This document shows, piece after piece, positions 24,812-30,338 of a DNA stretch of 64,000 nucleotides. Under the pieces are notes generated by a model. That model was not told where the DNA came from. It saw nothing but the letters and a program-made list of their open reading frames with translations, and searched no databases. A program made the position numbers and the translations under genes. This DNA comes from Rheinheimera mangrovi (GTDB lineage: Bacteria; Pseudomonadota; Gammaproteobacteria; Enterobacterales; Alteromonadaceae): positions 3,145,501 to 3,209,500 of the forward strand of contig NZ_CP034683.1 of NCBI RefSeq assembly GCF_003990335.1, given 5' to 3'. How positions within the stretch are numbered: the stretch's first letter is position 1; every line of letters begins with the position of its first letter.

Positions 24812-24992
24812 TTTCTGTATTCCAATTCAGGTCTAAGTACATATTTCTGAAGCTGACCACCCGGATAAGATGCTCCTTGAGATCCAATGGCATGATCCAA
24901 TGGTGTCCACCAATGGTATCAGGTCTAATGTGATGACTCGCCTCCCATCCTGACTTAGGATGAGGTGACCAAACCGAAAGAGGCGAATCATC

Positions 24993-26009
24993 ATGCTTAT
25001 CAAAACATTAGGTGTAGATCTTGGCAAGCTCAGTTGTCATGTGATTGGGCAAGATCAGCACGGAAAAGTAGTAGAAAAGCGCAAAATACTGATCAGTAAG
25101 TTTGCAGAATATCTGGCAAATTTACCGCCATGCGCTGTGTTTTTTGAAGCCTGTGGTGGCGCACATCATTGGTGCCGTAAAGCCAGAAGCCTTGGCCATC
25201 GGGCTGACATGATACCGGCCAATTTCGTGAAGCCTTTTGTAAAGTCGAACAAAAACGACTTCAACGATGCCGAAGCCATTTGCGAAGCGGCACAGCGGCC
25301 GACGATGCGTTTTGCGCATGTTCGCAGTGAAGAGCAACAAGCCTTTGGCTGTTTACTCAAGTTACGTGAGCAGTTGGTAGAAGAGCGCACAGCGGTCAGC
25401 AATCAGGCGCATGCGTTTCTGTTGGAATTTGGTATTCAGCAGAAAAAGGGCCGTGCTTTTATCGGCACTGTAGCGGATATGACTGAAAATCCTGATATTA
25501 ATTTACCTGAAGCGCTGCGTCTGGCGCTGTTCCGTCTGGTGGAGCGTTATAAAGCGGTTGATAAAGAAATCAGTGAGTTGGAACGGGATATCACGGCGAT
25601 TAACAGCCAGAACGAGAACTGCAAGCGTATGCAAAGCATTCCGGGTGTAGGTTTAATTACCTCGAGCTTTATTGAATCATGGGCTGGCAGTTGCAACCAG
25701 TTTAAAAGTGCCAGAGACTTTGCGGCCTGGGCAGGATTAGTACCAAAACAGCATTCAACAGGCGGAGTAAGCAACCTGCTTGGGATCAGCAAACGCGGTA
25801 ACAGCACGTTGCGTAAATACCTGATCCACGGTGCACGCTCGGTTATCCAATGGAAGCTCGAAGAAGATCATGCCTGGAGCCCGTGGATTAAAAAGCTGTT
25901 AAGCAGTAAGAAAAAAACAGTGGCGGTGGTCGCTATGGCCAATAAACTGGCCCGCATTATCTGGGCCGTATTAACAAAAGAGCAGAATTACGCAGCAGTC
26001 GCTGCATAA
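24993..26009 (+). CDS. IS110-family transposase
   Basis: A 338-residue transposase/recombinase. The N-terminal RuvC-like DEDD domain shows GVDLGKLSCHV (Asp), FFEACGG (Glu) and NDFNDAEAICEA (two Asp). The C-terminal transposase_20 domain shows SIPGVGLITSSFIE, ARDFAAWAGLVPKQHSTGG and GISKRGNSTLRKYLIHGA, with the catalytic Ser expected in this part. In this family the enzyme works with an element-encoded guide RNA. It is identical to the protein at 27532-28548, so both copies are likely functional and recently duplicated. Confidence 0.95.
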   Translation: MLIKTLGVDLGKLSCHVIGQDQHGKVVEKRKILISKFAEYLANLPPCAVFFEACGGAHHWCRKARSLGHRADMIPANFVKPFVKSNKNDFNDAEAICEAAQRPTMRFAHVRSEEQQAFGCLLKLREQLVEERTAVSNQAHAFLLEFGIQQKKGRAFIGTVADMTENPDINLPEALRLALFRLVERYKAVDKEISELERDITAINSQNENCKRMQSIPGVGLITSSFIESWAGSCNQFKSARDFAAWAGLVPKQHSTGGVSNLLGISKRGNSTLRKYLIHGARSVIQWKLEEDHAWSPWIKKLLSSKKKTVAVVAMANKLARIIWAVLTKEQNYAAVAA

Positions 26010-26054
26010 ACCGGGTCACACCGAGTTTGCAACACGATGGCAATAAGGCAACAA

Positions 26055-26121
26055 CCATGATCGGAAACCTGTCAGGGGCAAAAGCACATAGATGCTGAAG
26101 GTCTTATTAGGGCGATGATGG
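26055..26121 (+). ncRNA. Candidate bridge/seek RNA of IS copy 1
   Basis: In the 3' noncoding part of the IS, CCATGATCG (26055-26063) pairs with CGATGATGG (26113-26121) at 8 of 9 positions. The enclosed loop contains TGTCAGG (same as the left target flank), GGGGCAAA (complement of TTTGCCCC in the right flank), CACAT (complement of ATGTG at the left IS end) and CATAGAT (26087-26093, identical to the last 7 bp of the IS). IS1111-type elements are known to encode such guide RNAs in this position. Exact RNA ends are not known. Confidence 0.5.
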
Positions 26122-26255
26122 GCGAACAACATAGCGGGCGGGCACAACAATAAAGTGCCAACAGACTCCGGATAGATTGACGCAGACTTATTTGCTAACC
26201 GTGCTTGCAATATGGAGGCGAGTCATAGATTGCCCTTTGCCCCCAACCAATGGTG

Positions 26256-27125
26256 TCAGGTCTTGCCCTTTGCCCCTGTGGATACTTTGTGGCTTTTCCC
26301 TGAAATAATACGGCTAACGGTTCCGTAATGTAAGTCAAAATAATGACTTAACTCCGTCTGATGGTAGCCTCCGCTGGCGTAAGCTAATTGAATTGCCCTG
26401 TTTCGGTCCCCTGAGGCTTGCTTTACATACCAATCTAAAGGCTTTGCGGGTAAACGTTTTTGCTTCGTGGGAATTTCAGATAACAATTCAGGGCAGGATA
26501 TTTTGCTTTGCATTTCACTGACAAAACTATCTGACCCCAGATAAATCAACTGCTTGACCTCGGGCCACAAACTTTTTCCCACTCCACGCAATACAAAATC
26601 CTGATACTTACGAATGGCCTGTGAGCGTTCGCTACCAAAGAGTGACAACAACTGGTCCACTGCCAACCATGGTGGTGGCTCATGATAATGACAGGTAAAG
26701 CAGTAACTACTCCAGGGCCACTCTTCGCAGCTATCTACCATTGCCGCACGCACCGGATTCAATACGATGTAACGGCTGACTTCCAGCAGATAACTGTCCT
26801 TTTGTACCAGTATCGCTTTAAAGCGCCCCTGAAACAAATGACCCACTCTTTTGTGTGTCCGGTTAAACGTCTGGGTATAAACACCATTGAGCTGGCGCAT
26901 GCCGCCGCTTAAATTGGCATCCGGTGTCTCAAGCAGAAGATGATAGTGGTTGGTCATCAGACAATAAGCATGTACTACCCAGTTAAAGCGTTCACACACC
27001 TGCGCCATAAGCTCCAAAAAAGCCTGATGGTCAGCTTCGTTCTGGTAAATAGCTTTTCGCTCGTTACCACGTGACGTCACATGATACAAAGCTCCGGCAA
27101 ACTCCAATCGCAGTGGGCTGCTCAT
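26256..27125 (-). CDS. REP-associated tyrosine transposase (RAYT)
   Basis: A 289-residue protein of the Y1/IS200-like transposase superfamily. It begins LRLEFAGALYHVTSRGNERKAIY, has the HUH pair in TNHYHLLLET, a GHLFQGRFKAI segment and the catalytic Tyr in SRYIVLNPVRA. A C-terminal region of about 120 residues ends in a helix-turn-helix-like AYASGGYHQTELSHYF. RAYTs act on REP hairpins. The ATG at 27125 is chosen over an upstream frame to 27152 that runs into a hairpin. Its stop codon lies inside the TCAGGTCT motif that both IS copies target. Confidence 0.9.
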   Translation of the reverse strand: MSSPLRLEFAGALYHVTSRGNERKAIYQNEADHQAFLELMAQVCERFNWVVHAYCLMTNHYHLLLETPDANLSGGMRQLNGVYTQTFNRTHKRVGHLFQGRFKAILVQKDSYLLEVSRYIVLNPVRAAMVDSCEEWPWSSYCFTCHYHEPPPWLAVDQLLSLFGSERSQAIRKYQDFVLRGVGKSLWPEVKQLIYLGSDSFVSEMQSKISCPELLSEIPTKQKRLPAKPLDWYVKQASGDRNRAIQLAYASGGYHQTELSHYFDLHYGTVSRIISGKSHKVSTGAKGKT

Positions 27126-27139
27126 CCTTGACCCCAAAA

Positions 27140-27175
27140 CAGATAAGGTCAATTAACCATAGTTAACCTTATCTG
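27140..27175. repeat. REP-like hairpin upstream of the RAYT
   Basis: CAGATAAGG/CCTTATCTG and, inside, TTAAC/GTTAA form a long stem with a TCAA bulge and a CATA loop, 15 bp before the RAYT start. It is a possible substrate hairpin or translational control element. Confidence 0.55.
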
Positions 27176-27419
27176 TTCGGGCAAGGATTTATGCCACCTG
27201 GCGTTTTGATGAATACTGAGTGGCTATTGCGGTTTGAAATCAGGAAACGGGAAATGCCCCACCACTGAATATCGTTGCAACCAATGCCTTACAACAAGGG
27301 GCAAAGGGCAATCTATGACTCGCCTCCATATTGCAAGCACGGTTAGCAAATAAGTCTGCGTCAATCTATCCGGAGTCTGTTGGCACTTTATTGTTGTGCC
27401 CGCCCGCTATGTTGTTCGC

Positions 27420-27486
27420 CCATCATCGCCCTAATAAGACCTTCAGCATCTATGTGCTTTTGCCCCTGACAGGTTTCCGATCATGG
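27420..27486 (-). ncRNA. Candidate bridge/seek RNA of IS copy 2
   Basis: Mirror copy of the hairpin at 26055-26121, with the same guide-like segments. See that entry. Confidence 0.5.
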
Positions 27487-27531
27487 TTGTTGCCTTATTG
27501 CCATCGTGTTGCAAACTCGGTGTGACCCGGT

Positions 27532-28548
27532 TTATGCAGCGACTGCTGCGTAATTCTGCTCTTTTGTTAATACGGCCCAGATAATGCGGGCCAGTTTATT
27601 GGCCATAGCGACCACCGCCACTGTTTTTTTCTTACTGCTTAACAGCTTTTTAATCCACGGGCTCCAGGCATGATCTTCTTCGAGCTTCCATTGGATAACC
27701 GAGCGTGCACCGTGGATCAGGTATTTACGCAACGTGCTGTTACCGCGTTTGCTGATCCCAAGCAGGTTGCTTACTCCGCCTGTTGAATGCTGTTTTGGTA
27801 CTAATCCTGCCCAGGCCGCAAAGTCTCTGGCACTTTTAAACTGGTTGCAACTGCCAGCCCATGATTCAATAAAGCTCGAGGTAATTAAACCTACACCCGG
27901 AATGCTTTGCATACGCTTGCAGTTCTCGTTCTGGCTGTTAATCGCCGTGATATCCCGTTCCAACTCACTGATTTCTTTATCAACCGCTTTATAACGCTCC
28001 ACCAGACGGAACAGCGCCAGACGCAGCGCTTCAGGTAAATTAATATCAGGATTTTCAGTCATATCCGCTACAGTGCCGATAAAAGCACGGCCCTTTTTCT
28101 GCTGAATACCAAATTCCAACAGAAACGCATGCGCCTGATTGCTGACCGCTGTGCGCTCTTCTACCAACTGCTCACGTAACTTGAGTAAACAGCCAAAGGC
28201 TTGTTGCTCTTCACTGCGAACATGCGCAAAACGCATCGTCGGCCGCTGTGCCGCTTCGCAAATGGCTTCGGCATCGTTGAAGTCGTTTTTGTTCGACTTT
28301 ACAAAAGGCTTCACGAAATTGGCCGGTATCATGTCAGCCCGATGGCCAAGGCTTCTGGCTTTACGGCACCAATGATGTGCGCCACCACAGGCTTCAAAAA
28401 ACACAGCGCATGGCGGTAAATTTGCCAGATATTCTGCAAACTTACTGATCAGTATTTTGCGCTTTTCTACTACTTTTCCGTGCTGATCTTGCCCAATCAC
28501 ATGACAACTGAGCTTGCCAAGATCTACACCTAATGTTTTGATAAGCAT
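27532..28548 (-). CDS. IS110-family transposase
   Basis: A 338-residue transposase identical to the product at 24993-26009, with the same DEDD residues and C-terminal transposase_20 region. Complete identity between the copies indicates a recent transposition or gene conversion. The 3' noncoding part (27311-27531) carries the candidate guide RNA. Confidence 0.95.
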   Translation of the reverse strand: MLIKTLGVDLGKLSCHVIGQDQHGKVVEKRKILISKFAEYLANLPPCAVFFEACGGAHHWCRKARSLGHRADMIPANFVKPFVKSNKNDFNDAEAICEAAQRPTMRFAHVRSEEQQAFGCLLKLREQLVEERTAVSNQAHAFLLEFGIQQKKGRAFIGTVADMTENPDINLPEALRLALFRLVERYKAVDKEISELERDITAINSQNENCKRMQSIPGVGLITSSFIESWAGSCNQFKSARDFAAWAGLVPKQHSTGGVSNLLGISKRGNSTLRKYLIHGARSVIQWKLEEDHAWSPWIKKLLSSKKKTVAVVAMANKLARIIWAVLTKEQNYAAVAA

Positions 28549-28688
28549 GATGATTCGCCTCTTTCGGTTTGGTCACCTCATCCTAAGTCAGGATGGGAGG
28601 CGAGTCATCACATTAGACCTGACACCGTTTTTGCTAGAAGTGGGCAACACAAACCGGTTTTATTGAGCATATCAACCGGTGTCAACAC

Positions 28689-28869: not shown

Positions 28870-29505
28870 TTATGTATCTAAAGCAATTTGATCCCAATTA
28901 TTTTCTTTTGCAATCAACCACTCCATGGCCCGCCGCCTTTCCTCTACCGCAGCAAACTTTATATTTTTCAGTTTGCTCTCATCATCCCATATTTCAGGGT
29001 GCCTGATGGCTGCATTTAGACAATAATAAAAGTCCAACGCCAAGAGTAACTCATCGTTTTCTCGGTATGAAAATGATTCAATCAACTCATCAAATGATAT
29101 TTCAGGTGGAAGCTTTGAAAACATTTCATCGAGTTCAGATTCAACATCCAGATGTGGTAGATCCTCCGCAAGACCAACAAACCAGCATAAAACATAAATA
29201 GATTCTTGTTTCCAAGAACAGACATTTATATCTTCCTGAGATAATTGCTCTTTCTGTAAAATATTCATTTCATCTTTACTAAGAAAGCTAAGAAATTCAT
29301 TTTCCTCAAGCCAATTCCATAACAAATCTGGATCGGCATCCCGAGCCAATCCTAACATCACATATAGACCTACAATCCTTCTTGCTATGTCTTCTGAGTT
29401 TTTCTCTAGACAGCCACTAATTAATGGAAGATGTGGGTGTAATGGTATTCCATGTTTAATAAGTTTTTCTTTGGTCTTTAATCGAATTAAATTTGAATTT
29501 TTCAT
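28870..29505 (-). CDS. DUF4272 family protein, likely immunity partner
   Basis: A 211-residue soluble protein. The conserved DUF4272 features are visible: an N-terminal ARRIVGLYVMLGLA helix, a WKQESIYVLCWFVGLAEDLP central block and the C-terminal VEERRRAMEWLIAKENNWDQIALDT. It starts 17 nt after the stop of the orphan Rhs toxin on the same strand, the usual place for an immunity gene. Function as immunity protein is inferred from position. It is AT-rich compared with the core genome. Confidence 0.7.
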   Translation of the reverse strand: MKNSNLIRLKTKEKLIKHGIPLHPHLPLISGCLEKNSEDIARRIVGLYVMLGLARDADPDLLWNWLEENEFLSFLSKDEMNILQKEQLSQEDINVCSWKQESIYVLCWFVGLAEDLPHLDVESELDEMFSKLPPEISFDELIESFSYRENDELLLALDFYYCLNAAIRHPEIWDDESKLKNIKFAAVEERRRAMEWLIAKENNWDQIALDT

Positions 29506-29522
29506 TTAATATTCTTCAATTA

Positions 29523-30338
29523 TTATTTTTCATCTAATTTCTTCAATCGATTACTTTCTATCTTGCTAGAAACCCTTACAGTTCCCGTGACTTTTTGCTT
29601 ATGAAACTTGGCATAGCCACCTTTACTTTCTGTTCTGGTCTTCGCAGCATGATTTTCTTTAGTTCTCAAGTCCAATTTTTTGGGGTCTTTGCTATTATGA
29701 TCCCATTCAGTATTTCGAGGGTTTCTTCGCCCTCCACCTGAGGTACTGGTTCGTTCGTAGACATCATCACCGTGCTTAGCTTCTTGCTCTTTTCTGAACT
29801 CAGGATCATTTTTCATCTTTTCATGATACTGCTTATTCCCAGCATATGAGTGACCAGACCTGCTTTTAGCCTTAGTCTCACTCAAATCTGCGGTAAATCC
29901 ACCATCCGGCTCTGGATGTTTTTTAGAAACTACATTTTGCGATCCTATGTCAGGTCCTTCACCTTTCATCGCTTTGGATGCGCCATTATTTTTGACTGCA
30001 TCAATTCCATCATCTAAAGCTCTAGCAACTTTCGATGAACCAGCTGGCACAAAGGGCGTTACCGCAGCAATAGAATCAGCAGCTAAATCGGTTAACCCTT
30101 CGGACACAATCACAGGATTGTTTGTAGCATATCCATAAGTCACCTTACCTACATCATAGATAATGCTAACAACATCCCAAGCTGTTTCCCACACATAACC
30201 CGTTGGATCTGTCCCAGACAATGGATTGTTCATTCCATAGCTGTACGGGTTCAGACTCTGTGAGTTACCAGGACTCTGAATCACAGGATCAACACTCAAG
30301 AACCGCCCCAAATTGTAATCATACCCCCGTCCGTTCAT
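29523..30338 (-). CDS. Orphan Rhs C-terminal fragment with HNH-like toxin domain
   Basis: A 271-residue frame. The first 47 residues are the end of the Rhs core (GRGYDYNLGRFLSVDPVIQ, SLNPYSYGMNNPLSGTDPTGY), the usual border before a variable toxin. The rest is the variable tip, ending with a basic EWDHNSKDPKKLDLRTKENH block that resembles an HNH-type nuclease. The coding sense continues upstream to about 30372 (AIRLIH) and then hits a stop, so the roughly 1000-residue Rhs body is missing. This is a displaced toxin tip. A DUF4272 gene follows directly. Confidence 0.75.
   Translation of the reverse strand: MNGRGYDYNLGRFLSVDPVIQSPGNSQSLNPYSYGMNNPLSGTDPTGYVWETAWDVVSIIYDVGKVTYGYATNNPVIVSEGLTDLAADSIAAVTPFVPAGSSKVARALDDGIDAVKNNGASKAMKGEGPDIGSQNVVSKKHPEPDGGFTADLSETKAKSRSGHSYAGNKQYHEKMKNDPEFRKEQEAKHGDDVYERTSTSGGGRRNPRNTEWDHNSKDPKKLDLRTKENHAAKTRTESKGGYAKFHKQKVTGTVRVSSKIESNRLKKLDEK

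Follow-up and report, generated by a model that had tools for sequence, protein, structure and literature searches.

Two identical copies of an insertion sequence face each other in the genome of Rheinheimera mangrovi, each with a non-coding region of about 220 nt behind its transposase gene, and this locus raises the question of what the region encodes and which sequences it reads. The window analysed here is the whole stretch of 64,000 nucleotides (contig NZ_CP034683.1, positions 3,145,501 to 3,209,500). A sequence-only reading had proposed that a 67-nt hairpin in this region belongs to a guide RNA of the IS1111-like family and that its loop holds both target and donor guides. Our analysis indicates that the region very probably encodes a guide RNA of the IS1111 type, about 150 nt long, with a target loop and a separate donor loop, the element homing to repeats that flank a RAYT-type transposase gene.

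The element and its target repeat

24926..26229, plus strand: IS1111-group element, copy 1 (1304 bp; ends by the 7 bp/3 bp rule, junction ambiguous by one T)
27312..28615, minus strand: IS1111-group element, copy 2 (identical to copy 1; positions are 53541 minus those of copy 1)
24993..26009, plus strand: DEDD transposase gene, 338 aa (copy 2: 27532-28548, minus strand)
26253..26275, plus strand: intact, unoccupied target repeat, 23 bases past copy 1, at the end of the RAYT-type gene
26256..27152, minus strand: RAYT-type Y1 transposase gene (PF01797), origin of the target repeat, with one of the inverted IS copies on each side

The 1304-bp element is present in five identical copies genome-wide, the pair of the window being in inverted orientation. 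Members of the IS1111 group have subterminal inverted repeats of 11-13 bp with extensions of 7 and 3 bp (Siddiquee et al., 2024, PMC11187229), and here a repeat of 13 bp carries the extensions TAATGTG (7 bp) and AGA (3 bp). As expected for this group, the longer non-coding region lies 3' of the transposase gene, and the five copies and the intact sites indicate a single target entered in a single orientation without duplication. The transposase exhibits the domains DEDD_Tnp_IS110 (PF01548) and Transposase_20 (PF02371), with a C-terminal domain of the IS110 type, and its residues D9, E52, D89, and D92 are conserved in 50-51 of 51 relatives. It is linked by sequence to IS621 and ISCro4, and its best full-length relatives in the named genome collection are found in Rheinheimera sp. 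UJ63 (87%) and Arsukibacterium tuosuense (85%).

All five copies are inserted in one orientation between TCAGGTC on the left and TTxCCC(C/T)TTGCCC on the right, x being G in four of them and T in one. The target of the element, written across the insertion point, reads GTCAGGTC and then TTGCCCCTTGCC, its right half forming a 7-bp tandem repeat, and the genome has 12 occurrences of the 23-base target when up to three mismatches are allowed. Two intact sites at 94.1-94.4 kb of G000 share the bases adjacent to the target (about 10 on the left, more than 20 on the right) with two neighbouring inserted copies, and insertion was therefore precise and without duplication.

The repeat on the flanks of the RAYT-type transposase gene serves as the target, which makes the element one that homes to repeats of this kind. 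This gene, the sole PF01797 match in the genome at E up to 0.001, encodes a Y1 transposase and has inverted copies of one repeat on its two sides; the label RAYT is our own and was assigned from PF01797 and the flanking inverted repeats, not from a RAYT-specific model. With up to two mismatches, a 13-base motif is found in 20 of the 30 loci of the PF01797 gene, that of the window included (65 sites vs. 3.3 in shuffles), and it is absent from the ten others. IS621 is said, in a paper title, to enter REP-type repeats. Similarly, ISPa11 enters REP-type repeats (PMC11187229). A search for literature linking RAYT and IS1111 gave a single paper, on an unrelated matter.

By eye, the 13-base motif frequently forms a facing pair immediately outside the PF01797 gene. 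A second inverted pair of the same IS was seen at about 2528-3023 of L205 (G000:C1:91500-97500), enclosing some 470 bp. Two target sites, inverted and intact, lie in this interval, where a PF01797 gene was looked for and not found.

The guide RNA and its target loop

26040..26189, plus strand: guide RNA predicted by covariance model R1 (54 bits, E 7.5e-12; copy 2: 27352-27501, minus strand)
26055..26121, plus strand: predicted target-binding hairpin, 67 nt, by fold and model R1 (copy 2: 27420-27486, minus strand)
26074..26081, plus strand: putative right target guide (RTG), AGGGGCAA, complement of target positions +1..+8, +1 being the first base right of the insertion point (copy 2: 27460-27467)
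26084..26097 (approximate limits), plus strand: cap hairpin between the target guides, by fold and relatives
26099..26105, plus strand: putative left target guide (LTG), AGGTCTT, same sequence as the target from five bases left to two bases right of the insertion point (copy 2: 27436-27442)
26205..26210, plus strand: predicted -35-like box TTGCAA, separated by 17 bp from GATAAT once the circle is closed (26228-26229 joined to 24926-24929)

Relatives were collected by calling element ends with the subterminal-repeat rule, which yielded 179 element rows and left 17 transposase hits without called ends. After end-quality and flank filters, 158 rows were kept, representing 104 distinct non-coding regions in 57 clusters. 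Column covariation and model-placed guides were assessed in 56 of the 57 clusters, whereas the transposase tree comprised 51 representatives. The alignment had 42 representatives that passed its filters, of which 41 were used, this element being omitted, and model R1 was accordingly built from 41 other clusters.

The 67-nt hairpin is present in both copies, as had been claimed, and folds better than most shuffles (-19.5 kcal/mol, z -2.30; 2 of 200 equally good); for the fold of the 221-nt non-coding region, z is -1.96, with 9 of 200 shuffles equally good. Its attribution to a guide RNA of the IS1111-like family was borne out by model R1, which was built without this element and in the window matches the two copies only (E 7.5e-12), the next match having an E of 0.67. 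Genome-wide, with 150 of 601 first-look candidates scored, five places were matched, all of them copies of this IS. Among relatives, 100 of the 104 loci were scanned (all except L193, L194, L195, and L201) and every one was matched, including the 59 outside the training set in addition to the 41 used for building. In a set of 26 loci, 23 were matched at E up to 1, two of these being cut by a contig end, while L061 and L085 (partial genes) and L065 were unmatched. No Rfam family reached its gathering score in the window and none gave an E up to 1 in 25990-26260. The helices covary with a score of 0.724, a value reached by none of 500 shuffles, though it should be read knowing that the structure was derived from the very alignment tested and that the alignment representatives were selected by guide matches. 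The 67-nt hairpin is, judging from these comparisons of sequence, the putative target-binding half of an IS1111 guide RNA (seekRNA or bridge RNA).

A promoter at the junction of the circularised element is a described feature of IS1111 elements (PMC11187229). At the circle junction, at least five of the six bases of TATAAT are present in 50 of 57 representatives, and likeness to TTGACA peaks at the 17-bp spacing (3.8 of 6 vs. at most 2.4 at other spacings). Transcription of the guide RNA probably starts at this promoter, formed when the IS ends are joined.

Published IS1111 seekRNAs carry a complement of the top strand followed by a match to the bottom strand (PMC11187229), and the same arrangement is found here at the insertion point, with 17 nt between RTG and LTG. 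LTG matches 7/7 at all five genomic copies, and RTG fits 8/8 for two of them, 7/8 for both window copies and 6/8 for the remaining one. The combined scores of the five copies are thus 15, 15, 13, 14, and 14 of 15, whereas 12 is the highest score that this RNA obtains with the target of any of the 56 other clusters, and the 14/15 of copy 1 was reached in none of 2000 mononucleotide shuffles of the non-coding region. The guide RNA encoded 3' of the transposase gene would be expected to pair through RTG and LTG with the target across the insertion point, and the DEDD transposase would recombine target and circle junction without target duplication. For an IS1111 element that had not been characterised, these positions form a guide map open to testing.

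The same relation holds across the family. Hexamers drawn from the non-coding region show an excess of identical matches at target offsets -5..+3 and of complementary ones at about -1..+8 (0 being the first base right of the insertion), with no comparable enrichment at any other target offset. The order RTG, 12-24 nt, LTG scores at least 12/15 in 41 of 57 true pairs vs. 176 of 3192 mispaired ones, 16 of the 57 clusters remaining below 12. With guides placed by the model, a score of at least 5 is attained by LTG and RTG alike in 39 of 56 clusters vs. 113 of 3080 mispairings. By column, LTG positions 61-67 track offsets -5..+1 one by one, with z between 4.2 and 10.0 at all seven (56 clusters), and RTG columns 36-43 track +6..-1 in reverse, seven positions having a z of 4.1 to 7.7. 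The RTG of this element lies one base off the family register, and columns in its own register give z values of 1.2 to 3.5. In the IS110 family, the guide order is reversed relative to IS1111 according to Siddiquee et al. (PMC11187229); this reversed order was tried on the present clusters and rejected, with at least 12/15 in just 18 of 57 vs. the 41 reported above.

That loop changes should follow target changes was partly confirmed. L016 and L083, whose transposases are 94% identical, have targets that differ at 8 of 13 positions, and their guides fit their own target 7+7 and 6+7 vs. 4+5 and 5+5 for that of the other. The trend is less regular among 103 close pairs with differing targets: one partner fits its own target better in 76 of them and the second partner does so in 64, and in many pairs the guides are the same and just the flanks vary. 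L014 (87%) has kept LTG while AAAAGCAA replaces AGGGGCAA; this segment would read TTGCTTTT, to which it is complementary and which is a variant of the repeat found next to other PF01797-type genes. LTG is also kept in L015 (85%), with a right-flank fit of just 5/8, and L165 fits its own flanks poorly. As a separate observation, L069 and L072 share guides and left flank and have different right flanks (TGGGTTAG and TGAAAATC), that of L072 fitting the guide 3/8, which suggests a rearranged or off-target copy.

A second loop that covaries with the IS ends

26126..26132, plus strand: candidate right donor guide (RDG), ACAACAT, 5/7 complementary to the left IS end, weak here (copy 2: 27409-27415)
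26172..26177, plus strand: candidate left donor guide (LDG), ATAGAT, same sequence as the final five bases of the IS together with its first base (copy 2: 27364-27369)

The proposal that one hairpin loop holds target and donor guides was correct for the former, which lie there, but the donor segments that covary are found outside the hairpin. Indeed, a second internal loop follows 3' of 26055-26121, with closing helices paired in 96-97% of cells. In 52 of 57 representatives, the sequence on its 3' side is that of the final five bases of the IS together with the core base (mean of 5000 permutations 18.8, maximum 28), and the columns facing base -2 of the right end and base +5 of the left end agree and are complementary, respectively, in 55.7 of 56 weighted clusters each. 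The 5' side is weaker, with a mean match of 5.6/7 vs. 4.8 when permuted (42 anchored representatives) and at least 5/6 in 40 of 56 clusters. In this element, LDG scores 6/6 and RDG 4/6 over the six scored positions. L014 and L015 differ from it in the right end and in the LDG segment alike, AGA being changed to ACA in both places. All four guides covary by column, variable positions requiring at least 7 to 24 changes each on the transposase tree, and they are all above their cut-offs in 17 of 56 clusters only.

The donor loop thus covaries with the IS ends family-wide, which supports a donor-reading role for the long IS1111 RNA. In this role, RDG and LDG would pair, in the same order as the target guides, with the right and left ends where these meet in the circular element. 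For many IS1111 elements, a multi-loop with potential donor nucleotides had been predicted (Durrant et al., 2024, PMC11208160), and in its excerpted text the seekRNA article leaves the role of the long seekRNA open (Siddiquee et al., 2024, PMC11187229), a question on which this covariation bears. No later study of an IS1111 donor loop was found in the open-licence PMC literature.

Alternatively, the RNA could be a seekRNA for the target only, in which the first loop guides insertion, the second ignores the IS ends and the transposase finds these ends through the subterminal repeats. An 82-nt short seekRNA supported movement of ISEc11, and did so better than the long one (PMC11187229); its sufficiency counts against a required donor loop. 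Moreover, only target matches are described in the excerpted text of that article, and the RDG of the present element is weak. We nevertheless regard this explanation as unlikely, since it leaves aside the LDG match, far above its permuted mean, and the agreement of the columns facing -2 and +5, maintained over at least 9 changes of the right-end trinucleotide and at least 13 of left-end base +5 on the tree of 51 representatives (at least 8 for the core). A broader reading, in which the long RNA (about 150 nt) acts throughout the IS1111 group as a full bispecific bridge RNA, its conserved second loop reading the element's own circle junction in the same right-then-left guide order, seems likely to us. 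If true, it would explain the purpose of the long seekRNA and unite the seekRNA and bridge-RNA descriptions. If the donor loop is real, a single rewritable RNA would determine which donor and which target an IS1111 system uses, as in IS621.

Other guide assignments and known systems

The sequence-only reading had taken TGTCAGG and GGGGCAAA as target guides for outer positions and CACAT and CATAGAT as donor guides, all in one loop, an arrangement that we consider very improbable. The matches themselves exist, and for the right target the RNA segment was well chosen; GGGGCAAA fits the outer register 8/8 in copy 1. Its register (+7..+14) gives z values of -1.5 to 1.3, whereas that of the family lies at the insertion point; both registers of RTG are readable in this one element because of the 7-bp tandem repeat in the right half of the target. 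TGTCAGG does occur in the RNA but adjoins only two of the five genomic copies on the left (copy 2 of the window and the copy near 2.0 Mb), copy 1 having TATCAGG, and as a left target guide it obtains a z of -1.1 to 0.9 per position (56 clusters). It overlaps a structural motif, CCTG directly 5' of RTG, that is common in relatives with unrelated targets, so the match is best read as coincidence. CACAT and CATAGAT show the matches to the IS ends that were described, with z values of -2.2 to 0.6 as donor guides, and sit in the cap hairpin that relatives rewrite: in L014 (87% identical, with the same left end) AGCACATAGATGCT has become AGTATCTTGATACT, and the cap letters are lost in L014 and L015. 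On none of the four diagonals is there covariation (z -2.2 to 1.3).

Shuffled controls gave a divided answer. Among 2000 dinucleotide shuffles of the copy 1 hairpin, a match at least as long as the real one was obtained in 1428 for the left flank (5), 85 for the complement of the right flank (8), 353 for the complement of the left end (5) and 35 for the right end (7). Single matches are thus weak, whereas all four together occurred in none and at least three in 12. When the same hairpin was compared with the flanks and ends of the 56 other clusters, the real lengths were reached in 29, 1, 6, and 5, respectively. The earlier assignment of guides is mostly wrong, and the identification of a guide RNA right. 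That no functional RNA exists and the matches derive from ancestral DNA duplications of ends and targets has a negligible probability in our view: the non-coding region and the ends do evolve within one element, and the clusters are related, their counts not being independent, but identity on one side and complementarity on the other run in colinear diagonals, the target flanks covary although they lie outside the element, and the helices covary as RNA.

The guide RNA is ordinary in kind, and the donor loop is the part of wider interest. IS1111 seekRNAs of ISEc11, ISPa11, ISKpn4, and ISPst6 are alike in their downstream non-coding region, their subterminal repeats with 7/3 bp extensions, the order of complement before match and a target across the insertion point; here, the target is a RAYT-flanking repeat, and donor segments are assigned here only, with respect to the excerpted text of that article (PMC11187229). 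The bridge RNA of IS621, in the IS110 group, has two internal loops that each pair with both strands of target or donor, as those of the present RNA would, but it lies upstream of the gene and not downstream as here (PMC11208160). The C-terminal half of the IS621 recombinase is related to the present transposase. IS4321 and IS5075 have a transposase 45.6% identical to it, are found by model R1 (1.2e-21 and 4.5e-21, respectively), and carry guides that fit their own flanks (RTG 8/8, LTG 6/7). Their target is reportedly, as worded in the title of a 2003 paper by Partridge and Hall, the terminal inverted repeat of Tn21-family transposons.

Two further observations were made by eye. Ten relatives (L018, L020, L024, L027, L042, L087, L096, L099, L110, and L127) are inserted directly 5' of a T run that follows GC-rich sequence, and their targets may be intrinsic terminators. 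Beyond copy 2, the minus strand at 28870-30338 carries an ORF that starts like an Rhs core (29523-30338) and, after it, one of 211 aa (28870-29505); the two look like the tip and the partner of a polymorphic toxin system.
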